A stretch of DNA of 36,105 bases. Origin: Bacteroidota bacterium. Lineage in GTDB: Bacteria > Bacteroidota > Bacteroidia > J057 > JAJTIE01. This document shows positions 7,530-29,135 of this stretch, in pieces. The notes beneath the pieces are model-generated. The model searched no databases, was not told the origin of the DNA, and saw only the letters and a list, made by a program, of their open reading frames with translations. Position 1 is the first letter of the stretch. Each line of letters opens with the position of its first letter. The stretch covers positions 1-36,105 of the forward strand of contig JAHBTG010000024.1 in the NCBI GenBank assembly GCA_019638695.1, in the 5' to 3' direction. Position numbers and translations under genes: made by a program.

Positions 7530-9476
7530 ATGGAGTATCTGCAGATCCTGCTGGGTTATGTGCTGGGTATACTAAGCTATGCCCTAGCAGGGGCAGGCAT
7601 CTGCCACATCCTGGGACTACGCCATCCTATGCAGGCCAGCCTCTGGGGCTGGTTCGTGCGCCTGGTAACGGGCTGGCTGGCCATCACCGCCCTCATGGCC
7701 ATTGTGCTCATGCAGGGCGTGACCATCCTGTGGGGCATTCCGCTGGTGGGGCTGCTCTTTTACCGGGAGGTCAAAACTACCATCACGGCCCCCACAACTA
7801 CCCCCAATCCACCCGGGGTGCCCGCCTGGCAGTGGTTATGCCTGGTGCTGGGCTTGCTGTTCTTTGCAGGTGTCGCCTGGCTCAACATCTATGACTGGGA
7901 AAATCACCTGATGCTGGTCTCCCGCTATCAGCCGGAAGAAACGCTGCACTACGCCCAGGTATCGGCCTGGCTCACCAACGGGCACGAAAGCCGCAATACC
8001 GTGCAACCTGCGCTGATGGAAGCCTACCGGGGTACCACTCCCTATCATTACCCGGACTTATATACCACCTTATGGCTAAGCTGGCTAAGCGGCCTCCCTC
8101 CCCTGCTGAGCCTGCATATGGTGATGAAACCACTGCTGCAAGCATTGCTGCTGATGGGCCTGTGGGGGTTTGGGCAGCAGCAAAGCGGCTGGCGCAGCCC
8201 TCTTCCGGGGCTTTGGGCAATGGTGATCCTGTGCTTCAGCTTCTGGTTGCCACCACAGTACCTACCCCACGGCGGATTGGGCTTTTTGCAGTACTACACT
8301 CCGCTGATCCTGGAAAAACTGTTGCCCTTGTGCCTGGTAAGCCTGGCAGCCACAGCCGCATTTGCGCAAGGCCAGACGATACTTGCCCTGGGCCTCTTCA
8401 GTATGCTCCTGTTCCTCAACGTGGGGGCAGCGCCGGCAGTACTGGGCCTGAGCCTGGGAGGGCTCCTGGCGCTGGCCGGCACCCGCCGGTACCGGTGGAG
8501 GCCCGTATTATGGATGTCCGGGAGGCTTGCTGTCGTGGCGGTGTTCTTTGTGGCGTTCTACGCCCTCACTCAGGTAACTGTAGAAGAAAACCGGCAGGTA
8601 GTCGTCTTTAGCTGGCCGTTTGGGCTGATAGATTATAAAAACTGGGTGGCCAGCACCCTATGGGCAGTAGTTTTACTGGGGTTCCTGCATTTACCTGTTT
8701 TCCTGCCATTAGGAATGCGGCTACTACGAAAGCGGCATATCTGGAAAGCGCCTTCTATGCTTGGAAATTACCTGCTATGCGTGCTGACCGGGCTTTTTGC
8801 AGCATGGGCTGCATTTCAGATATTCTACTGGTTTACCCAGGAAGGGCTACAGCTTTTCTGGGGGATCTATATCCCATTGCTGCTACCGGCAGTGGTTTGG
8901 GGCTTCTCTGTGTTATGGCGCAGCACCTCTCTGCGCTGGCGGATAATCCTCACCCTATGTAGTCTCTTACCCGGCAGTGTCCTGCTGGGAGAACATGTCC
9001 GGCAACTGGCAGAATTGCCTATCCCAAACCGTTTTACCTACAGCGCCGCCTTTATTGCACAAACCGGCGGCATCCTGGATAGTCACCCGCCAAGCCAGTT
9101 CATGGGTATAGGGCTGAAAAGTCCGGCAGACTATGCAAGCCACACACACGTGGACACCTGGATACTGGGCTGCCCGGCGATCTACCTGCACCAGCCCAGG
9201 CTCTACTTTGTACAAAGCTGCTGGGATAGCCTGCCAGCCCCTATGTATAGCCGCAGCGTGGTGCAGGATCATATCCAAGCCGGTTATTACACCCGCTGGT
9301 TAAAAACGCAGCCCACCCGTACCCGCGGCGCGCATATGGCAGCGTTTGTGACACAGCACAAGATACAATACGGACTTGCCTACAAGCATGCCGGCATCCC
9401 GTCGGAGCTCCGGCCCCTGATCAGGCACACCCTCACAGACAGTATCAGTGGTGAACGATTGCTGGTATTTAGATAA
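7530..9476 (+). CDS. Large polytopic membrane protein, GT-C glycosyltransferase-like (function unassigned)
   Basis: A 648-residue inner-membrane protein that I cannot assign to a named family. Seen: about 11-13 hydrophobic segments between residues 5 and 490 (for example 5-30, 42-78, 99-118, 200-216, 227-240, 262-315, 330-347, 373-395, 412-435, 441-462, 470-486). A charged loop lies at about 119-182 (EETLHYAQ, then YHYPDLY), and a C-terminal domain of about 150 residues is mostly soluble. This layout, with an acidic first large loop and a soluble tail, resembles GT-C transferases that use polyprenyl-phosphate sugars. The next gene is a GT2 enzyme of the kind that makes such donors, spaced 9 nt away. 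The inference is transfer of a sugar to a lipid or surface glycan outside the membrane. A flippase or polymerase remains possible. Confidence 0.6.
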   Translation: MEYLQILLGYVLGILSYALAGAGICHILGLRHPMQASLWGWFVRLVTGWLAITALMAIVLMQGVTILWGIPLVGLLFYREVKTTITAPTTTPNPPGVPAWQWLCLVLGLLFFAGVAWLNIYDWENHLMLVSRYQPEETLHYAQVSAWLTNGHESRNTVQPALMEAYRGTTPYHYPDLYTTLWLSWLSGLPPLLSLHMVMKPLLQALLLMGLWGFGQQQSGWRSPLPGLWAMVILCFSFWLPPQYLPHGGLGFLQYYTPLILEKLLPLCLVSLAATAAFAQGQTILALGLFSMLLFLNVGAAPAVLGLSLGGLLALAGTRRYRWRPVLWMSGRLAVVAVFFVAFYALTQVTVEENRQVVVFSWPFGLIDYKNWVASTLWAVVLLGFLHLPVFLPLGMRLLRKRHIWKAPSMLGNYLLCVLTGLFAAWAAFQIFYWFTQEGLQLFWGIYIPLLLPAVVWGFSVLWRSTSLRWRIILTLCSLLPGSVLLGEHVRQLAELPIPNRFTYSAAFIAQTGGILDSHPPSQFMGIGLKSPADYASHTHVDTWILGCPAIYLHQPRLYFVQSCWDSLPAPMYSRSVVQDHIQAGYYTRWLKTQPTRTRGAHMAAFVTQHKIQYGLAYKHAGIPSELRPLIRHTLTDSISGERLLVFR

Positions 9477-9485: not shown

Positions 9486-10430
9486 ATGAAGCCACTTATC
9501 TCCATAGTCAGCCCGGTATATGGCGGCGAGAAAACCACTGCAGAACTGGTCAGCAGGCTGCATGCCGCACTACAGCCGCTGACCGCAAACTATGAGATTA
9601 TCCTGGTAGAAGACCATAGTCCGGATAATAGCTGGGCGGCCATAGAGGCCACCTGTGCACAGGACCCACGGGTGGTGGGTATCAAACTCAGCCGCAACTA
9701 CGGACAACATTACGCCATTACGGCAGGGCTGGACCACGCACAGGGGGAATGGGTGGTGGTGATGGACTGCGACCTGCAGGACCGGCCGGAAGAGATCCCG
9801 GCGCTTTACCGGGCGGTCCTAGATCAGAACCTGGATTATGTGCAGGCGGTGCGGTCCGCACGGCAGGACAATGCCCGCAAACGCCTGGGCTCCTTCCTGT
9901 TCTACCGGGTGCTCTCTCACATGGTGGGCAAGCTCTATGACCACCGCAAGGCCAACTTTGGCATATACCACCACAAGGTCATCAAGGCCATAGCCAGCTA
10001 CCGGGAGCGGAACCGCTTCTTCCCGGCCCTGGTGCAGATGGTGGGGTTCACAGGCGGAGAGGTGGAGGTCACCCACGCCGAAAGCGGGCGCGGAGGCTCC
10101 ACCTATAACCTGCGTAAGCTGCTGAGACTGGCAGAAGACATCATCCTGTCGCATAGCGACAAGCCCCTGCGGTATATCACGCGTTTCGGGTTCTTCATTT
10201 CTTTTCTTTCCCTCCTGGGGGCAGCCATCACATTTGTGCGCTGGACACTGGGGTACATCGAGGTACTGGGCTACGCCAGTATTATCCTTTCTGTGCTGTT
10301 CAGTACCGGCATCCTGATGTTTACACTGGGCATACTGGGCCTTTACGTGGGCAAGACCTTTGATGCCGTCAAAAACAGGCCGCTCTACATTATTGACCAA
10401 CACCTGGGACAAGCTCCTGCTGCAGAATAA
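9486..10430 (+). CDS. GT2-family glycosyltransferase, polyprenyl-phosphate type (GtrB/ArnC/DPM1-like)
   Basis: A 314-residue GT-A fold enzyme tethered to the inner membrane. Seen: N-terminal strand ISIVSPVYGGE at 5-15, the nucleotide-binding ED pair at 42-43, metal-binding DCDLQD at 94-99, the motif FTGGEVEVTHAESGRGGSTY around 188-207, and two C-terminal transmembrane helices at about 231-252 and 263-288, followed by the common ending NRPLYIID. Known of the family: transfer of a sugar from a nucleotide donor to undecaprenyl phosphate at the cytoplasmic face. The neighbours, a polytopic GT-C-like protein upstream and a hexapeptide-repeat transferase 4 nt downstream, fit a small pathway that decorates a surface glycan or lipid. 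The sugar transferred cannot be read from sequence. Confidence 0.9.
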   Translation: MKPLISIVSPVYGGEKTTAELVSRLHAALQPLTANYEIILVEDHSPDNSWAAIEATCAQDPRVVGIKLSRNYGQHYAITAGLDHAQGEWVVVMDCDLQDRPEEIPALYRAVLDQNLDYVQAVRSARQDNARKRLGSFLFYRVLSHMVGKLYDHRKANFGIYHHKVIKAIASYRERNRFFPALVQMVGFTGGEVEVTHAESGRGGSTYNLRKLLRLAEDIILSHSDKPLRYITRFGFFISFLSLLGAAITFVRWTLGYIEVLGYASIILSVLFSTGILMFTLGILGLYVGKTFDAVKNRPLYIIDQHLGQAPAAE

Positions 10431-17860: not shown

Positions 17861-20281
17861 CTAGAATTTAATACGGTATTCCATCTTGGGAGCAAGGTTG
17901 CGTACAAACTCCGGCTGAGCGTAGGCACCCATACGCAGGTACAACCCAAAACCCAGGAACTGCAGGGTACTGACCAGCTTGACCGCCGGACGGGGCATCA
18001 GGTTAATGAGTGCAACGCCCGTCTCCCAATAACCCAGTTCCGGAGCGCGCAGCGGAATATCCCCGGCATGCGCATCGGGCGCCTGCTGGCCCTGCAAACT
18101 ACCCCAGCCGCCATTGCAGACCAGGCGGATATCGGGGTTATACTTTTTGCCGGGGAACCGCTGGTTCACCAGCTGAAAATGCAGGTACCCCACTGCATAA
18201 CGACTGGCGGTAAAATCATTAAAGAACATGGTGTTAAAGGCATATCCCTCTGCAATAAAATTGGGTTCTCCATTGGCATGGAAAATATATAACCGGGAAT
18301 AGGGCAATGCGCCTTGCAGCACACCGGCATTCACCTGGTAATTGAGGCTAAGCCAGCCGGAAAGCCGCCGCTGCTGAGACACGGAGATCTCCGCCTTCTG
18401 ATAGGCATACTCCCCGCCCAGCAAACCTTCCACCCCCAGGGTAAGCCGGGCTATACACACGGGCCACTTGCTACCCAGGCTATACAGCGTGCGCCCTTCC
18501 CTGCGGAATTTCTCGCTCGGCGCCCAGCGCAGCTCGGCAATGGCTTCTGTGAAGGAAAATACATTGCGGTCTTTATAGAAATAAGTATACGCAGGGCGCA
18601 CCCGGTCCTGCAGCAGGCTAAAGCGATGGTTCAGATTCCCCAGGCTGGAGAAAAACAGACTGACCTGGTGCTGGGTGCTGTAGTCCATGATCTCCATAAA
18701 CAGCATGCGGCTGCTCTGGTACTGGGCCGGGCGGTCATAGAGCATGCGCTTGTTCTTGAGCCCCACATATTGCGCACCGGTCACCACCAGATCCTCATCA
18801 TATTCATAGTGCAGGCGCAGGTTCTTGTTATGAAAGGGATGCAGATGCACATCCAGTCCATATTTCCAGCGGGCATCCCCGGTTCCCCAGCCCCCCCAGC
18901 CCCCCACAGAGAAGGCGGAGCTGAGCCGTTCGTTGGTGTGCAGGCCCATCCCCAGGCGGTTGCTCTCCACGCGGTTCAGCCGGTACAGGCGGGCCAGGTC
19001 CAGGTCAAAAATCCCCACCGCCAGGTAGCCAAACTGTATCTTGTTAAACTGCCGCACCAGCCCTGCCCATTTATATTTGCGGCCCAGGCTGTCCAGCACC
19101 GTATAGGTCTGTCGTTCACGCCCCAGCAGGCTGTCCTGGCGGGCTTCCGACCAAAAGGTATCGGGCTGCTTACCTGCCTGTTCAGACACATCCAGCACAA
19201 TAGCGTTATGCGGAATGGGTTGCGGCTCAAACCCGATGCTGTCCAGGTAGGTGCGCGCTTCCAGCACAAAGAACTCCTGGGGTTTTGCCTGCAGTTTACT
19301 GGGGTGCAAATGCACCTCAGTATAAAGCTGGCGGGGGAACCATATACCCTCCGGGCGCTTTTCATGCACTTGCTTGATCTTGAAGCGGATCCAGAGCCCC
19401 ACGTCATCCGGCAGTATGGCCTCGGCAGATATGCTTTGCAGGGCATAATCTGCGCTGTGGACCCGCATTTCGCCCACGAGCCCCTGCCCAAACCCTCCTT
19501 CGGGAGAGAAATGGATGATATATAGCGTATCCGTGCCCTGGAAGAGGGTATCGCGCAGGTAATAGCGATAGCGTTTGGGCCCGGAAAAGGCAATAGGACT
19601 GAGAAAATCCTGCTCCAGGATACGCACCCAGTCATCATAGAAGCCGATATCCTGCACTTCCGTAGGGCTAAAGGGGATGGCCATGCCCTGCAACCCGCTG
19701 ATACGGCTCCCGGTAATCAATTCATAGTCTTTATCCGGGCGCACATAATACCGGCGAGAGGTACTTTCCCACATCATCAGGCGCATCACCCGCATCAGGC
19801 TATCCATTTGTTTGCTCATGCGGGGGTTCCCGCCCAGCGTGAGTTTGGTATAGCTGGCATAATGATAGGCTTCCAGTTTGCGGGGATTATGCCGGGGACG
19901 ATTGGCTATCATCTGGCGCACAATGGCCAGTGCCGGGTTCTCTCCGGCTTCTACCGTGATGGCATCCGTCTCCACCAGCTTGGGAGACAAGGGGAGCACC
20001 CAGGACCCTGCGCTATCGGGCAGTGCAAACCGGCGGGAGATAAACCCCATGTAACTGGCTTCTACACTGTCTCCCGGCACCTGCAAGCGCAGCATAAAAT
20101 AGCCGTTCACGTCTGTGACGGCACCGGCCTGCCCTTGCAGGGTCTTGACCAGTGCAAAAGGCAATCCTTCGCCACTGGTGGCATCTATCACCCGGCCCAC
20201 CAGCGTGTCTGGCTGCTGGGCAGCTACAGGCACCCCCCAGCCCAGCAACCCCCATAGAAATATGCAGATGCGTGCTTTCAA
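17861..20281 (-). CDS. DUF5686 family outer-membrane protein with carboxypeptidase-like regulatory domain
   Basis: An 806-residue predicted outer-membrane barrel. Seen: signal peptide at 1-21 (VPVAA then Q), a CarbopepD_reg_2-like domain at about 26-110 (LVGRVIDATSGEGLPFA, AVTDVNGYFMLRL), the DUF5686 opening at about 114-150 (NPALAIVRQMI, HNPRKLEAYHYASYTKL), and then many amphipathic strands to a C-terminal EYRIKF. A terminal Phe is the usual outer-membrane insertion signal. The family is widespread in Bacteroidota, often near envelope genes, and has no settled function. The start codon must be a TTG at 20279-20281 to keep the signal peptide; an ATG at 20283-20285 is out of frame. No neighbour shares its operon: it faces a stem-loop at one end and a divergent dehydrogenase at the other. 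Confidence 0.85.
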   Translation of the reverse strand: MKARICIFLWGLLGWGVPVAAQQPDTLVGRVIDATSGEGLPFALVKTLQGQAGAVTDVNGYFMLRLQVPGDSVEASYMGFISRRFALPDSAGSWVLPLSPKLVETDAITVEAGENPALAIVRQMIANRPRHNPRKLEAYHYASYTKLTLGGNPRMSKQMDSLMRVMRLMMWESTSRRYYVRPDKDYELITGSRISGLQGMAIPFSPTEVQDIGFYDDWVRILEQDFLSPIAFSGPKRYRYYLRDTLFQGTDTLYIIHFSPEGGFGQGLVGEMRVHSADYALQSISAEAILPDDVGLWIRFKIKQVHEKRPEGIWFPRQLYTEVHLHPSKLQAKPQEFFVLEARTYLDSIGFEPQPIPHNAIVLDVSEQAGKQPDTFWSEARQDSLLGRERQTYTVLDSLGRKYKWAGLVRQFNKIQFGYLAVGIFDLDLARLYRLNRVESNRLGMGLHTNERLSSAFSVGGWGGWGTGDARWKYGLDVHLHPFHNKNLRLHYEYDEDLVVTGAQYVGLKNKRMLYDRPAQYQSSRMLFMEIMDYSTQHQVSLFFSSLGNLNHRFSLLQDRVRPAYTYFYKDRNVFSFTEAIAELRWAPSEKFRREGRTLYSLGSKWPVCIARLTLGVEGLLGGEYAYQKAEISVSQQRRLSGWLSLNYQVNAGVLQGALPYSRLYIFHANGEPNFIAEGYAFNTMFFNDFTASRYAVGYLHFQLVNQRFPGKKYNPDIRLVCNGGWGSLQGQQAPDAHAGDIPLRAPELGYWETGVALINLMPRPAVKLVSTLQFLGFGLYLRMGAYAQPEFVRNLAPKMEYRIKF

Positions 20282-22015: not shown

Positions 22016-22828
22016 ATGTGGCAAGTGACGCTGAGTCCCTGCTCTGAGCAGGAGCAGGAAACCCTGATCTCCCTGCTGGACGGGCTGGGGAGTGACGGTT
22101 TCTGGCAGGAGGGCCCGCACCTGCACAGTTTCTGGCTGCAGGAACCTCCGGCAGAGGTCATATCGGCGGCACGGGATGCGGTAAAAGGCCTGCAAGCGCC
22201 TGTCATCCAGCTACTGCCGGATACCAACTGGAACGCCGCCTGGGAAAGCAGCTATGAGCCGGTGAACATCCCGGGTATCTGCCAGATACACGCCACCTTC
22301 CATGAACCGGCTCCCGGCTACCCGCTGCATATCGTCATCCAGCCGCAGATGTCCTTTGGCACGGGCCATCACGATACCACCCGGCTCATGATAGAGATGC
22401 TGGCGGCAGCAATCTCTCGGCCCGGGCGCACGCTGGATATAGGATGCGGCACAGGCGTGCTGGGTATTTATGCCTTACTGAGTGGGGCTTCAGAAGGGTT
22501 ATTCATAGACATAGACCCCAACTGTGTGCACAACACGCAGGAAAACCTGGCCCTCAACGGACTGACGGCACAGGTGTTACAAGGCGGGAGTTCAGCCATT
22601 CCTCCAGACTGGCGGGCAGATACCCTGCTGGCCAACATCAACCGCAATGTACTGCTGGCGGACGGCGTTTATTATCAGCAGGCACTAGTCCCGGGCGGGC
22701 ACCTGCTGCTCAGCGGATTTCTTGATTTTGATACGGATGCCATCATCCGGCACTATACGACCCTAGGACTTCACCTCACTGCCCGGCGCGAAGCGCAAAG
22801 CTGGCAATGCCTTTGTTTTCAGCGATGA
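22016..22828 (+). CDS. prmA: Ribosomal protein L11 methyltransferase
   Basis: A 270-residue class I SAM methyltransferase that trimethylates ribosomal protein L11 in the cytoplasm. Seen: the PrmA hallmark MSFGTGHHDTT at 112-122, SAM motif I DIGCGTGVLG at 141-150, acidic FIDIDPN at about 163-169, and the catalytic-domain motif LLANINRNVLL at 204-214. The N-terminal L11-binding domain at 1-60 is present. Its TGA stop overlaps the ATG of the next gene (ATGA at 22825-22828), so translation of the two is coupled. Linkage of this housekeeping enzyme to a giant secreted protein and a two-component system is the odd part of this locus. Confidence 0.93.
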   Translation: MWQVTLSPCSEQEQETLISLLDGLGSDGFWQEGPHLHSFWLQEPPAEVISAARDAVKGLQAPVIQLLPDTNWNAAWESSYEPVNIPGICQIHATFHEPAPGYPLHIVIQPQMSFGTGHHDTTRLMIEMLAAAISRPGRTLDIGCGTGVLGIYALLSGASEGLFIDIDPNCVHNTQENLALNGLTAQVLQGGSSAIPPDWRADTLLANINRNVLLADGVYYQQALVPGGHLLLSGFLDFDTDAIIRHYTTLGLHLTARREAQSWQCLCFQR

Positions 22829-25800
22829 AAAAGAACTTACTCACGCTCCTTCTTATCTGTGGCAGCATGCTTCCGGCAAGCCTGCAGGCGCAGTTTACCG
22901 GCAAGGCCGAGACCTTTCTGCCTGAGCTCAAGGACCAGATCAGCCGCCAGGGAGTAGCCGAGCTTAATGCCTGGTATACCACATTCGCGGCTTTTTATGA
23001 GTCCAGCCTGCTGGATGAAAAGGATAAAAAGACAGTAGCAACCACTTTACCCATTATCCTCAAGGTGCGGGGGTATTCACTGGCCGGGCAGGGGGTGATG
23101 TTCCTGCGCACCCTGCAGATGCTGAAGGACAGTACTGCAACAGTGGAGATCTCCCATGCCAGCTACCTCAAAGCCCTGCGCAGCAGTGTAGAGGGGCTCT
23201 CCACCCAGCAATATGCCAAGCTGCATACCAACCTGGAGGCTTTCCTCAAAACCAAGACCCTGTTTGCCAGTAAAGATTTCAGATGGACCACCGATGTGGA
23301 AAAGGCCAGCTTCAAAGTGGTGGAAATCTATGATGAGAAGCTGAATGACTACCGCACGATGCCCCGGCTGGAACTGCCCCAAAGCAATCTTACCTTCAAA
23401 AGCGAGTTCACACAAGCCACCATCCAGCAAACCGGGGGACTGTTTGACCCCATCAGCTGGACATGGGCAGGGCAGGGCGGCCGCTATGACTGGGACCGGG
23501 CGGGCCTGGATACCCGCGATGTCTTTTGCGAGCTGGGGAAATATGACATCAACCTGTACCAGGAGCAATGGAAATGCGACTCTGTGGTATTTACCTACAG
23601 CACCATGGTAGGCAAACCCCTCAAAGGGCGGCTGGAAGAAGTGTATGAACACAACAAAGACCGCAAGACCTACCAGTACCCGCACTTCACCAGCCATGAC
23701 TCCTGGGTGGAGATGCCCAATATAATGCCGGAGATTGACTATGCGGGAGGGTTCAGCCTGCGGGGCAGCCACCGCTATGGTACTGCAGACGGCAAGCGCC
23801 TGGCCGAGCTCACGATCAAATACCAGGGAGACCGCCGGGTGCGTGCCGGCCTGAAAGAGCTAGACCTGGACAACCCGGATATCAACCAGCCCAACGCCCG
23901 CATCACCATTTTCCTCCCGGGCAAGGATACGCTCTCGCACATAGATATGAAGCTGCGGTATAATAACGGCACCAAGGCGCTGGACCTGGTTATCGACCGG
24001 GACAGCCCCGCCCACTGGCAGCCCATTCTCTCCAGCTACCATAAGATGGGATTTTGGTTTGACCGCATTGTGTGGAACCTGACCGAAGACACCCTCCTGT
24101 TCACCAGTACCATTGCCCAGGATTACAAGAAGTTTGCCATTGAAAGCCAGGATTTCTTCCGCCTGGAGTTTTTCCGCCAGTATCAGGGCACCCTGGATTT
24201 CAACCCCATCAACGTCATCAACCGTGTGTACATGGAGGACCTGAACGGCCAGATCCAGGCACGCAACAAGGAGTTCCACAAACGCCAGAAGGCCAGGAAC
24301 GAACCAGAGAAGACCCCGGAAGAAGAGGAGGACGACTATAACCCCTATGAATATGGCTGGGATGCGCCCCCGCCGGTAGTGGCCGTACCGGAAACCACCG
24401 CTACCGGGGAAATCAAGGAGCCCCCGCTGCCGGAGGTCAGGCCGCGGTATGTATATACCGTGGATGAGGTGCTCAAACGATTTGACAAGATGGACCGCAA
24501 GAATGCCTTCAAATACCAGTTAGGCATCCTGGCAGGCGCCGGATTCCTGTATTTCGACGGCAAAACAGAAGAGATCACCATGCTGCCCAAATTGGTGCGC
24601 TGGGCAGCCGCGGCCCAGAAAGCCCGGGATTATGACGGCCTGCAGCTCCTCTCTTATGCCGCAGACGGAAAAAATGCGTACTTGTCCTACAAAGACAAAA
24701 CCCTGCAGCTCAATGGTTGCGAGACCTTTTACCTGAGCGATACGCTGCTGGTCAGCGCTTTCCCAGAAGACTACAAGGTATGGGTGCATGAGAACCGCAA
24801 GATGAACTTTGGCGGCGGGGTAAAAGCCGGCAAACTGAACCTTACGGGCAAAGGCAGCCATATGTTCACCTATAACTGGGAAGACCACAAGATCTTCTGC
24901 GACTCCATAGATTTCCTGCGTTTTGTGCCCAGCCGGGATGCCGAGCTCGAAGCCAAGCAAGACCCCTCCCGCCTGCTGACCGCACTCAAAAAACTGCGTA
25001 TAGAAGGCATTACAGGCGCCATATACGTCTCCCAACCGGGCAATAAATCCTGCATCAAACCCTTTGCCGGCTACCCAGTCTTCGACTGCTATACCGAGTC
25101 CTTTGTCTATTGGAATGATTCCACCATCCAAAAGGGGGCCTATCCCAAAGACCAGATCCGCTTTATCCTGGACCCCTTCGTGATCGACAGCCTGGAGAAC
25201 TTCGACAACCGTGCACTGGAGTTTCAGGGCGAGTTTTTCTCCAACGGTATCTTCCCGGAGTTCCGGGACACGCTCATGCCCGTGGCAGACAATACTTACG
25301 GCGTACATGAATATACCCCGGAAAACGGGCTCAAGCTTTACAAGGGCAAAGGACAATACTATAATGAGATCACCATGGACAACTACGGTCTATGGGGCAA
25401 TGGCAAAATAGATTACCTCTCCAGTGTGGCAGAAAGTGATACCTTCACTTTCTACCCCAATATGGTGACCGCCAAAACCCGCAGCTTCAAACTCAAGGGC
25501 GGCGCTTACAATGGTATACAATACCCGGAGATAGAAGCTAATAATCTGAAGTATACCTGGCATCCCCAGGAAGATAAACTGGTGATCGAAACCGCTTACA
25601 AAGAACCCATGCGCATGTATGGCGGCACCTCCGAGTTCTTTGGCAAACTGGTGATCACCCCCAAAGGTGTGTATGCCGACGGTGCGCTGGCAATGGGCAA
25701 TATGCAGATAGAAAGCGATTCTATGGATATGCGCGAGGGTAAGCTCACGACCGACAAAGGCACGCTCAAGATATCTGACCCGGATATGCCCACCAAATAC

Positions 25801-27708
25801 CACTTTATCAGCGCCAATTCCGTCATCGAGTACAATGTAGAATCTGCCAAGGCCGATTTCTTTAACCGGGAACCTGAAAAAGCCAATATCTCATTCCCGC
25901 AGATCAAATATGAAACCACTGTGGGCAAAGGCGTATATGACAAAAAAGCCAATGTCATTACCCTGGTAAGCAATACAGAGCGCCCCAAGACCAATGTCTT
26001 CACCAGTACAGATCCGGGTCAGAAGGGCCTCAGCTTTAATGGACAGGCCAGTGTATATGCCGTCAATGAAGCGGCGCTCAAGATCACAGGAGCAGACTCC
26101 ATCAAAGTAGCGGATGCGGTGCTGTTCCCCAACAGCGGGAAGGTTACCATCCTGCCTACGGGCAAGGTAGCGCCGCTGGACAGCGCCCGTATCGTATGTA
26201 ACGATACCAGTCGCTATCACCTCATTTACGATGCCAAAGCAACGATTGCCCATGCCAAGAGTTTCACGGGCAACGGACAATACACCTATGCCACCATACA
26301 GGGTAAGCAGCAGGTCATCTTCTTTGACAAGATCAGTGTGCAGGGAGATAGCCTGACCATAGCCACCGGCAAGGTGACGGAAGACCAGGGGTTCTTTGTC
26401 TCGGAAAAGATGTACTTCCGCAACACAGCCACCCTTACAGCCAACCGCCGCTTCCTGGGCTTTGACGGAGAAGTCAAGGTAGAGTTTGACAACCCGGCCT
26501 TTGACAGCTGGATAGCCTTCTCAGACGGGTATGTAAACCCGGACACGGTTATCGTTAAAATAGATGCCGATAAGCTCAAAGGCAAATATGTGGGCATGAG
26601 CTACTATAGCTCATTGCGCAACCGCTATCTCTACCAGCTCTTCCTGGAGCCCAAGACCGCCAGCCAGCGCAAAGACAGGGATATACTGCTGGCCACCGGG
26701 GCCCTCACCTATGATAAAGCCACCGGCAAATTCCGCATCGGTCCGCCGGAGAAGCTGCTGAACCATATTTACACCGGCAATGTGATGGAAACGGACGAAC
26801 GCCTGGAGGTAAAAACGGCCCGCGGATACTTTGGCCTGCCCGTAGCAGATAACCCGGTGACCAAGACCCTCAAGATCCGCATGGCCGGCCAGCTTACCCA
26901 GTTTGGAGACCCTGTTAAAATGAATGGTGAAATGGTGCTGGCGCTGGACCTGCCGGTCAACCTGCGGGAAGCATTTGTTAAATATGGCAGCCGCATGACC
27001 AAAGATGCCATACAGGAGTTTCCGGCCAGCTTTGACAGCCGCCTGATCCAGGAATCCATCTCCGAGATCATGGACCGCGGCAACCCGGCAGAGCCGTTGA
27101 GCAAGCAGCTATGGGAAAAGGACCTGCCGGCCGTCAAAGACCCTGCCCAGCTCAAAGTGGGTAAATACCTGCCGGCCGACCTGGTGCTGAGCAACGTCAA
27201 GTTCAAGTATTGCAGCGTAGCCAACGCCCTGTATACCGCAGAAGACGTCTCCCTCCTATCCGTAGCCGGAGAGCCGATCAACCGGGTAAATACAGCGCGG
27301 ATCATCTACGCCTTTGGCCGCCCGGATGCCCGGGGTAACCAACGGCCAGATACCCTGCGCCTCTACGTGGGCTGGGCCAATGACTTTGAATACCTGTTCA
27401 TAGAAGCCACGGAAGGGTATGTCCGCATGACCTCCACACACATGGGAACCCGCCAGGTAGTAGAAGAACAAGTGGGCAAAATGGCCAAGAAGAACGAACT
27501 GGGCTATACCCTGGTCAATGCCACGCCTGAAGACGTGGATATATACCGCAACCGTTTCTCCCTGCGCTACTCGCCCACCGCCTGCGAAGCCGCCACCGAA
27601 GACGGAGAAGAAGCGCCGGAAGAAGAGGAACAGCCAGAGGAAGAAGCCCCTGCCGAAGAAAAACCCGGCGATACCCCGCCGGGAAACACTCCTCCCAAGC
27701 CGGAATAA
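22825..27708 (+). CDS. Giant secreted protein of unknown function (1627 residues)
   Basis: An exported protein I cannot place in a family. Seen: signal peptide at 1-22 (SLQA then Q), a partly helical N-terminal region to about 180, then long stretches of short beta strands separated by turns through most of the protein (for example GLKLYKGKGQYYNEIT and YGLWGNGKIDYLSS at about 835-865). This pattern suggests stacked beta structure such as an OstA-like or solenoid fold. An acidic, proline-rich linker lies at about 493-540 (TPEEEEDDYNPYEYG), and an acidic Glu/Pro tail at about 1588-1627. No T9SS sorting domain, transmembrane anchor or protease motif is visible. The ATG chosen overlaps the prmA stop by 4 bp, and the histidine kinase starts 6 nt after its stop, so all belong to one message. 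Inference: a periplasmic or envelope protein, possibly sensed by or regulated through the kinase. Confidence 0.7.
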   Translation: MKKNLLTLLLICGSMLPASLQAQFTGKAETFLPELKDQISRQGVAELNAWYTTFAAFYESSLLDEKDKKTVATTLPIILKVRGYSLAGQGVMFLRTLQMLKDSTATVEISHASYLKALRSSVEGLSTQQYAKLHTNLEAFLKTKTLFASKDFRWTTDVEKASFKVVEIYDEKLNDYRTMPRLELPQSNLTFKSEFTQATIQQTGGLFDPISWTWAGQGGRYDWDRAGLDTRDVFCELGKYDINLYQEQWKCDSVVFTYSTMVGKPLKGRLEEVYEHNKDRKTYQYPHFTSHDSWVEMPNIMPEIDYAGGFSLRGSHRYGTADGKRLAELTIKYQGDRRVRAGLKELDLDNPDINQPNARITIFLPGKDTLSHIDMKLRYNNGTKALDLVIDRDSPAHWQPILSSYHKMGFWFDRIVWNLTEDTLLFTSTIAQDYKKFAIESQDFFRLEFFRQYQGTLDFNPINVINRVYMEDLNGQIQARNKEFHKRQKARNEPEKTPEEEEDDYNPYEYGWDAPPPVVAVPETTATGEIKEPPLPEVRPRYVYTVDEVLKRFDKMDRKNAFKYQLGILAGAGFLYFDGKTEEITMLPKLVRWAAAAQKARDYDGLQLLSYAADGKNAYLSYKDKTLQLNGCETFYLSDTLLVSAFPEDYKVWVHENRKMNFGGGVKAGKLNLTGKGSHMFTYNWEDHKIFCDSIDFLRFVPSRDAELEAKQDPSRLLTALKKLRIEGITGAIYVSQPGNKSCIKPFAGYPVFDCYTESFVYWNDSTIQKGAYPKDQIRFILDPFVIDSLENFDNRALEFQGEFFSNGIFPEFRDTLMPVADNTYGVHEYTPENGLKLYKGKGQYYNEITMDNYGLWGNGKIDYLSSVAESDTFTFYPNMVTAKTRSFKLKGGAYNGIQYPEIEANNLKYTWHPQEDKLVIETAYKEPMRMYGGTSEFFGKLVITPKGVYADGALAMGNMQIESDSMDMREGKLTTDKGTLKISDPDMPTKYHFISANSVIEYNVESAKADFFNREPEKANISFPQIKYETTVGKGVYDKKANVITLVSNTERPKTNVFTSTDPGQKGLSFNGQASVYAVNEAALKITGADSIKVADAVLFPNSGKVTILPTGKVAPLDSARIVCNDTSRYHLIYDAKATIAHAKSFTGNGQYTYATIQGKQQVIFFDKISVQGDSLTIATGKVTEDQGFFVSEKMYFRNTATLTANRRFLGFDGEVKVEFDNPAFDSWIAFSDGYVNPDTVIVKIDADKLKGKYVGMSYYSSLRNRYLYQLFLEPKTASQRKDRDILLATGALTYDKATGKFRIGPPEKLLNHIYTGNVMETDERLEVKTARGYFGLPVADNPVTKTLKIRMAGQLTQFGDPVKMNGEMVLALDLPVNLREAFVKYGSRMTKDAIQEFPASFDSRLIQESISEIMDRGNPAEPLSKQLWEKDLPAVKDPAQLKVGKYLPADLVLSNVKFKYCSVANALYTAEDVSLLSVAGEPINRVNTARIIYAFGRPDARGNQRPDTLRLYVGWANDFEYLFIEATEGYVRMTSTHMGTRQVVEEQVGKMAKKNELGYTLVNATPEDVDIYRNRFSLRYSPTACEAATEDGEEAPEEEEQPEEEAPAEEKPGDTPPGNTPPKPE

Positions 27709-27714
27709 TCCGCC

Positions 27715-28482
27715 ATGAACTCGCGCATTCCCCCCCTGGGTATCCTGCTGCTGGCAGCCCTCATCAGCCTGGCACTGGTACGCTTGCTACACAAACGCAA
27801 GCCCGCGGCCTCGTCTCCCGCAGAGGAAGAAGAACCCGAGGAGCAGCTTCAGCGCAGAGCTATCATAGAGGGGCAGGATGCCGAACGTCAGCGCATCTCG
27901 CGCGAATTGCATGACGGCATAGGCCAGATGCTGAATGCACTCAACTTCAAGGTAAATGAGGTAGTTAAGGATGAACTGGCCAAACAGCAGCTGATCTCTA
28001 TGGTGGACGAAACCCGCAACGAGATCCGCCGCATGAGTAACAACCTGATGCCCAGCGTTCTCGGTGATTTTGGCCTAGTACCGGCGCTCAAGCTCCTGGC
28101 TAAAAACAGCCTGCAGCATGCCGGCACCTTTGTAGAACTGCGCTGCCAGATACCCGAAGACCGGCGCTACAATCCGTCCCTGGAGATGGCCGTATACCGC
28201 ATAGCGCAGGAAGCCCTGAGCAACGTGATGAAGCACGCCAAAACCAAAGAAGCGACACTCCTGCTGGAAGAACGCAACGCCCACGTGTTACTGCAGGTGA
28301 CGGACCACGGCCTGGGCTTTGATGCGGCACAGGCCTACAAACACAGCCAACCCGCGCACCACGGACTGCGCAACATGCGCGAACGTACCGAACTGCTGGG
28401 CGGCATCTTCTCCATTAACAGCAACCGGGGCAAGGGCACACGCATCTCCGTATCTTTCCCCTTAACTTTGTCTTCACATTAG
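27715..28482 (+). CDS. Sensor histidine kinase, NarX/DegS-type (HisKA_3 + HATPase_c), without sensor domain
   Basis: A 255-residue membrane-anchored kinase. Seen: one transmembrane helix at about 7-24, a basic stop-transfer stretch (HKRK), an acidic linker at 36-43, the phosphoacceptor motif ERQRISRELHDGIGQ (H66), the N-box EALSNVMKHA at 166-175, the G1 box DHGLGFD at 197-203 and the G2 box HHGLRNMRER at 215-224. This is the HPK7 group that pairs with NarL/FixJ regulators. No periplasmic or cytoplasmic input domain is present; only about six residues precede the helix. The cognate regulator is 11 nt downstream. It probably senses through its membrane helix or a partner protein, the co-encoded giant secreted protein being an obvious candidate. 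Confidence 0.92.
   Translation: MNSRIPPLGILLLAALISLALVRLLHKRKPAASSPAEEEEPEEQLQRRAIIEGQDAERQRISRELHDGIGQMLNALNFKVNEVVKDELAKQQLISMVDETRNEIRRMSNNLMPSVLGDFGLVPALKLLAKNSLQHAGTFVELRCQIPEDRRYNPSLEMAVYRIAQEALSNVMKHAKTKEATLLLEERNAHVLLQVTDHGLGFDAAQAYKHSQPAHHGLRNMRERTELLGGIFSINSNRGKGTRISVSFPLTLSSH
28463..28470 (+). promoter_or_regulatory. Internal -7 element (TAACTTTG) before the response regulator
   Basis: Perfect match to TAnnTTTG inside the last codons of the kinase gene, ending 23 nt before the regulator ATG at 28494. It could allow the regulator to be made separately from the long upstream operon. No -33 element is evident. Confidence 0.45.
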
Positions 28483-28493
28483 TTGCTATATCT

Positions 28494-29135
28494 ATGAGCA
28501 AAATCAAAGTATTGCTGGCAGATGACCACCGCATGGTGCGCACCGGCATCCGCAACCTGCTGCAGCAGGCCGGCGACATAGAAGTAGTGGCAGAAGTAGA
28601 CTCCGGTGAACAGGCGGTGGCCCTGGCAACAGCCTCCGGTGCAGAAGTCATCCTGATGGATATTTCCATGCCAGGCCTCAACGGACTGGAAGCCACCCGG
28701 CAGATCAAGCTCAAATACCCCGACCTGCGGGTACTCATGCTCAGCATGCACGAAGAACCGGAATACGTCATCCGGGCAATGAAAAGCGGAAGCTCCGGCT
28801 ATGTGCTCAAGAGCGCAGACCGGGACGAACTGCTCAATGCAGTACGCCGCGTACACTCAGGAGAAAAATACTACAGCCCCGGCGTAGCAGGCATAATGCT
28901 GGAAGATGGCCCTTCTGCCCAGAACCATGATCCCAATCTTATCCTCACGGCCCGTGAGCGGCAGATCCTCCACCTGGTAGCCAACGGCAAGGTCACCAAA
29001 GAAATAGCAGAAGAACTCAACATCAGCCCCCGCACCGTAGAAACGCACCGGGTAAACATCATGCGCAAACTGGATGTGGCCAACACTGCCGAGCTCATCA
29101 AGCTGGCCGTGCTCTACAAACTGGTAGAAGCCTAG
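28494..29135 (+). CDS. NarL/FixJ-family response regulator
   Basis: A 213-residue DNA-binding response regulator. Seen: receiver domain at 1-120 with acidic pocket D10/D11, phosphoacceptor D56 (ILMDISMPG), switch residue in MLSMHEE and the conserved lysine in YVLKSAD. A LuxR-type helix-turn-helix follows at about 147-210 (LTARERQILHLVANG, ISPRTVETHRVNIMRKL). All phosphotransfer residues are intact. It is paired with the kinase 11 nt upstream and may have its own promoter inside that gene. The target genes are unknown; the operon itself and the giant secreted protein are natural first guesses. Confidence 0.95.
   Translation: MSKIKVLLADDHRMVRTGIRNLLQQAGDIEVVAEVDSGEQAVALATASGAEVILMDISMPGLNGLEATRQIKLKYPDLRVLMLSMHEEPEYVIRAMKSGSSGYVLKSADRDELLNAVRRVHSGEKYYSPGVAGIMLEDGPSAQNHDPNLILTARERQILHLVANGKVTKEIAEELNISPRTVETHRVNIMRKLDVANTAELIKLAVLYKLVEA

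Follow-up and report, generated by a model that had tools for sequence, protein, structure and literature searches.

The giant gene directly behind prmA in this Bacteroidota genome encodes a real, widespread and undescribed protein, for which structure models predict an Lpt-type beta-taco fold. The window, i.e., the whole stretch of 36,105 nt that was analysed, is an entire contig (C64) of a fragmented genome of 2.9 Mb that is 96% complete. Four consecutive genes make up the locus:

22016-22828, + strand: prmA, ribosomal protein L11 methyltransferase (PF06325, E 9e-40; NF001785 above cut-off)
22825-27708, + strand: giant gene, 1627-aa exported protein, predicted Lpt-type beta-taco fold (sequence, models, Foldseek, VIA-align)
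27715-28482, + strand: histidine kinase with HisKA_3 and HATPase_c domains and one membrane helix (Pfam; local neighbour)
28494-29135, + strand: NarL/LuxR-type response regulator with Response_reg and GerE domains (Pfam; local neighbour)

The giant reading frame (1627 aa) is uninterrupted by stops. Its ATG shares an ATGA with the stop codon of prmA, its own stop codon (TAA, 27706-27708) is followed by 6 nt and the ATG of the kinase at 27715, and 11 nt lie between the kinase stop and the regulator. This layout agrees with that given in the first-pass annotation, as does the kinase, which has a single membrane helix (residues 3-28) and no sensor domain. Judged on spacing, co-transcription of the giant gene with its neighbours in this genome is plausible; a scan for promoters and terminators gave nothing beyond what shuffled sequence yields. 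Elsewhere in the window, an ArnC-like undecaprenyl-phosphate sugar transferase (9486-10430, + strand; NF007986, E 9e-55, below the curated cut-off of the model) is preceded by a gene for a 648-aa protein (7530-9476, + strand) without a match in Pfam (E 1e-5) or NCBIfam (E 0.01), and the two are possibly a lipid A modification pair. The product of 17861-20281 (- strand), which combines DUF5686 with a carboxypeptidase regulatory-like domain, is likely an outer-membrane protein.

Searches by family assigned the giant protein to nothing known. It had no Pfam match at E values up to 1 and none in NCBIfam, in keeping with the earlier remark that it carries no recognisable motif, and 25 orthologs likewise gave no Pfam match to OstA, OstA_2, LptC or LptD. 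Comparison of the sequence with the PDB resulted only in a weak winged-helix match (a profile match to TFE), and comparison with a viral fold library merely in low-confidence fibre-type matches. No relatives were matched in plasmids, a scan of the genome contigs with the single protein found none either, and an alignment of 25 members was too diverse to yield patterns. Searches of open-licence PMC papers turned up no account of the protein, though it may be named elsewhere. Its earlier designation as an undescribed envelope protein holds.

Based on the sequence, the models and the alignment of relatives, the following order of domains was obtained:

22825-22893, + strand: signal peptide, residues 1-23, A-x-A followed by a near-invariant Gln23 (sequence)
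22906-23253, + strand: N-terminal all-helical domain, residues 28-143 (model)
23257-24150, + strand: beta-taco segment I, residues 145-442 (model, structural comparison)
24160-24633, + strand: winged-helix domain inside the taco, residues 446-603 (model, fold match, hhalign)
24634-26952, + strand: beta-taco segment II, residues 604-1376, matching the LptD taco at 926-1117 (model, Foldseek, VIA-align)
26965-27132, + strand: helical insert, residues 1381-1436 (model)
27181-27435, + strand: beta segment III, residues 1453-1537 (model)
27442-27594, + strand: C-terminal helices, residues 1540-1590 (model)
27601-27705, + strand: acidic C-terminal tail, residues 1593-1627, unconserved (alignment of relatives)

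The signal peptide, which had already been proposed, is of the cleavable type and is followed by no further hydrophobic or membrane segment, so that the protein is best read as a soluble exported protein of the periplasm. Of the two acidic low-complexity segments pointed out before, both are real, one as a poorly conserved loop of the winged-helix domain (about 472-543) and one as the C-terminal tail (1593-1627), but they are missing from most relatives.

For structure prediction, the protein was folded with AlphaFold2 as two overlapping fragments, using alignments of the window protein with 51-52 relatives. The model of residues 1-640 reached a pLDDT of 89.9 and a pTM of 0.78, that of residues 536-1600 a pLDDT of 86.9 and a pTM of 0.51, the latter of which leaves the overall path and the continuity of the trough unfixed. 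A comparison with the LptD/OstA families had been suggested from the start, and by structure the C-terminal half indeed gave LptD as best Foldseek matches (E 1e-7). In VIA-align, it matched the LptD taco with a Z score of 14.9 over 158 residues at 3.0 A, followed by LptC (Z 11.0) and LptA (Z 10.8), while the best non-Lpt row reached only about Z 8, well below the Lpt rows. The N-terminal half matched LptC, LptA and LptD at Z 8.6-9.7, values that are marginal taken alone; within it, residues 152-298 are LptC-like and residues 301-442 LptA/LptD-like. The predicted fold is thus an Lpt-type beta-taco, a beta-jellyroll trough in two long stretches with about 74-89 predicted strands, and looks like a much lengthened form of the trough along which lipopolysaccharide (LPS) passes from one membrane to the other. 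The winged helix at 446-603 resembles MarR and MukE folds (Z about 8). Neither a membrane anchor nor a barrel was found in the hydrophobic-segment scan and the model, in which the C-terminal 220 residues are helical apart from one short beta segment.

Parts of the family alignment were compared with each other by profile, which revealed an internal duplication, with residues 300-445 resembling 920-1080 (probability 94, E 1e-7) and residues 604-660 resembling about 1070-1120 (probability 87, E 4e-6). The two copies were delimited with hhalign as follows:

23689-25044, + strand: copy 1, residues 289-740, split by the winged helix
25561-26496, + strand: copy 2, residues 913-1224, uninterrupted

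When residues 446-603 were left out, 289-740 matched 913-1224 over 265 columns (probability 96.6, E 5.9e-10), while with the winged helix kept the match fell into two weaker pieces (E 5.5e-5 and 1.7e-4); a control with one side reversed gave E 0.05. These profile matches indicate that a taco unit of about 300 residues was duplicated and that one of the two copies received the winged helix as an insert. As evidence at the sequence level, they are independent of the fold search.

The giant protein shares the beta-jellyroll trough with the LptD taco, LptA and LptC, but differs from these Lpt tacos in its internal duplication, its inserted winged helix and its helical N-terminal domain; compared to LptA, it is about ten times longer, in one chain. 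The model shows no C-terminal outer-membrane beta-barrel like that of LptD, and LptD_2 is a separate gene. OstA_2 of the Bacteroidota (PF13100), an LptA-like protein, is also exported and periplasmic and would be expected to have the Lpt superfamily fold, but it too is encoded separately, and in hhalign the profiles of OstA_2 orthologs and the giant did not resemble each other (probability 1% or less). TamB/AsmA-like bridge proteins of the RBG type have been described for Flavobacterium johnsoniae (PMC12045153). The giant resembles such proteins, which are about 1500 aa long, in its size, in its repeated beta architecture and in its periplasmic location, but has no PF04357 match and no N-terminal inner-membrane anchor. 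As to a repeating beta-groove fold of the TamB kind, TamB was not among the structural-comparison rows listed for the giant, but the solved TamB structure is only a fragment.

The window genome encodes OstA_2 (on contig C56), LptD_2, LptC and TamB (G000:C95, 1558 aa), each away from the giant gene. We therefore rejected the idea that the giant is LptA/OstA, LptC, LptD or TamB under another name, since all four have genes of their own. The same inventory bears on the possibility that the giant belongs to the canonical Lpt bridge, as an extended linker that would stand in for LptA, or add to its length, between LptC and LptD in the periplasm. Such a role would fit the fold that the giant has in common with LptA, LptC and the N-terminus of LptD, but with OstA_2, LptD_2 and LptC all present and encoded elsewhere, and OstA retained in 18/18 near-complete genomes of the order, we consider it improbable.

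Relatives of about 1,500-1,800 residues are found in many Bacteroidia, mostly uncultured; the window genome has a single copy. Within its order, relatives were detected in 21 of 22 genomes (18 of 18 near-complete ones), and in an even draw from the class in 171 of 198 (150 of 175 near-complete ones), which points to long-term selection. A profile search in a draw from the phylum found the giant in only 10 of 247 near-complete genomes. Sampling differs between the two draws, and the phylum-draw rows shown belong mostly to a few families without the giant, several of which also lack it in the class draw; the counts thus describe a protein that nearly all members of many families have and that a few well-sampled families lack. 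The 59 relatives in one named genome collection all came from metagenome-assembled genomes, labelled as Bacteroidales, Flavobacteriales, Sphingobacteriaceae and others.

The neighbourhood was surveyed in 84 non-redundant loci, 79 of which included an upstream gene and 77 a downstream gene. In 52 of the 79, prmA lies directly upstream on the same strand, and in 11 further loci this place is taken by tpiA. The gene that is conserved as a partner of the giant is prmA, and both lie in a housekeeping cluster tpiA-prmA-giant-(plsY)-(clpS), the wider order being folP, DUF1599, a MauE/DoxX-like gene, an ABC permease gene, tpiA, prmA, giant, plsY and clpS. Genomes without the giant showed the site empty, as tpiA-prmA-clpS (L217), prmA-clpS (L214) or prmA-plsY (L227). 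The simplest history is presence in the ancestor of the class and loss in some lineages; repeated gain at the same site would be less simple. Distances between giants correlated with those between the PrmA proteins (Mantel r = 0.79, 50 loci; none of 1000 permutations as high), as expected from shared vertical descent. A common function does not follow merely from sharing an operon with the gene for a ribosomal-protein methyltransferase. A specific link to plsY, the next gene in 19 of the 77 loci, was rejected, since plsY also follows prmA in the giant-less L227 and is thus a neighbour of the cluster and not of the giant.

Some loci deviated from this organization. One genome (G046, L077:8197-17546, - strand) carries two full-length giants in tandem, abutting each other, with 30% and 25% identity to the window protein. 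In L147 and L148, a frameshift or an assembly error leaves the gene as two overlapping ORFs. In some relatives, another very large gene, for a product of 1812-2238 aa, separates plsY from clpS (L086:2093-8476, L119:13790-20506, L141:9634-15072, L142:13851-19841); the one that was scanned had no Pfam family and only a T9SS PorE-type stretch.

The kinase and regulator are not part of the conserved cluster. The first-pass annotation had linked them functionally to the giant, which as the input or output of the kinase would form one sensing system with the pair. The spacings of 6 nt and 11 nt in the window genome and a kinase without a sensor domain of its own are in line with this, but none of the 84 relatives' loci (77 with a downstream gene) has a relative of the kinase near the giant; in the nearest relative with data, which belongs to the same family, this place is taken by a gene on the other strand, with the contig ending soon after, and the kinases within the order are merely generic relatives (27-40% identical). 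Relatives thus keep the giant without the pair, an outcome named beforehand as one that would remove the link. We therefore rejected the pair as a conserved partner and consider a common sensing system highly improbable; the two genes are only a local neighbour, added beside the giant and outside the mechanism proposed here.

For the giant itself, we slightly favour a role as a single-chain trough of the Lpt type that would carry a lipid or glycolipid through the periplasm, alongside canonical Lpt. Acyl chains would be held in a presumably hydrophobic interior of the trough, giving the lipid or glycolipid a protected path over much of the periplasm. If all predicted strands stack pairwise as one solenoid, the trough would be about 18-21 nm long, which is close to the typical width of the periplasm. 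At both membranes, the protein may dock to partners through its N-terminal helical domain, its winged helix and the helices at its C-terminus, and the route would run apart from LptC/LptA/LptD and TamB, which the organism also has. While fold, insertion, distribution and adjacency were computed, lipid binding, lipid transport and membrane contacts are what we infer, and sharing the Lpt fold does not by itself establish lipid transport. DNA binding is unlikely for the winged helix, which has the MarR/MukE-type fold but sits in the beta-taco of an exported protein. Since winged-helix and helical domains are typical protein-binding modules when off DNA, these domains might instead bind clients, the giant then serving proteins rather than lipids, as a periplasmic scaffold, chaperone or outer-membrane assembly factor with the Lpt fold. 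That no lipid-specific neighbour is universally conserved beside the gene would suit this reading, yet the closest solved folds are all lipid-carrying Lpt tacos, and we regard it as unlikely, though still to be reckoned with. Several families lack the giant, so that canonical LPS export does not depend on it.

Transport of non-LPS lipids to the outer membrane is poorly known in Bacteroidota, and the giant is a concrete candidate: a near-universal, unnamed protein that is predicted to fold like the LPS trough and occurs beside an otherwise complete Lpt set. Its fixed site behind prmA eases finding and annotating it, and its patchy absence provides natural knock-outs for comparison. Tentatively, and with considerable doubt, many Bacteroidia, chiefly uncultured ones, may possess, in addition to canonical Lpt, a second trans-envelope lipid route via a duplicated single-chain beta-taco reaching almost across the periplasm, in which the winged helix would serve for docking or gating; this route would go back to the ancestor of the class, several families having lost it since.
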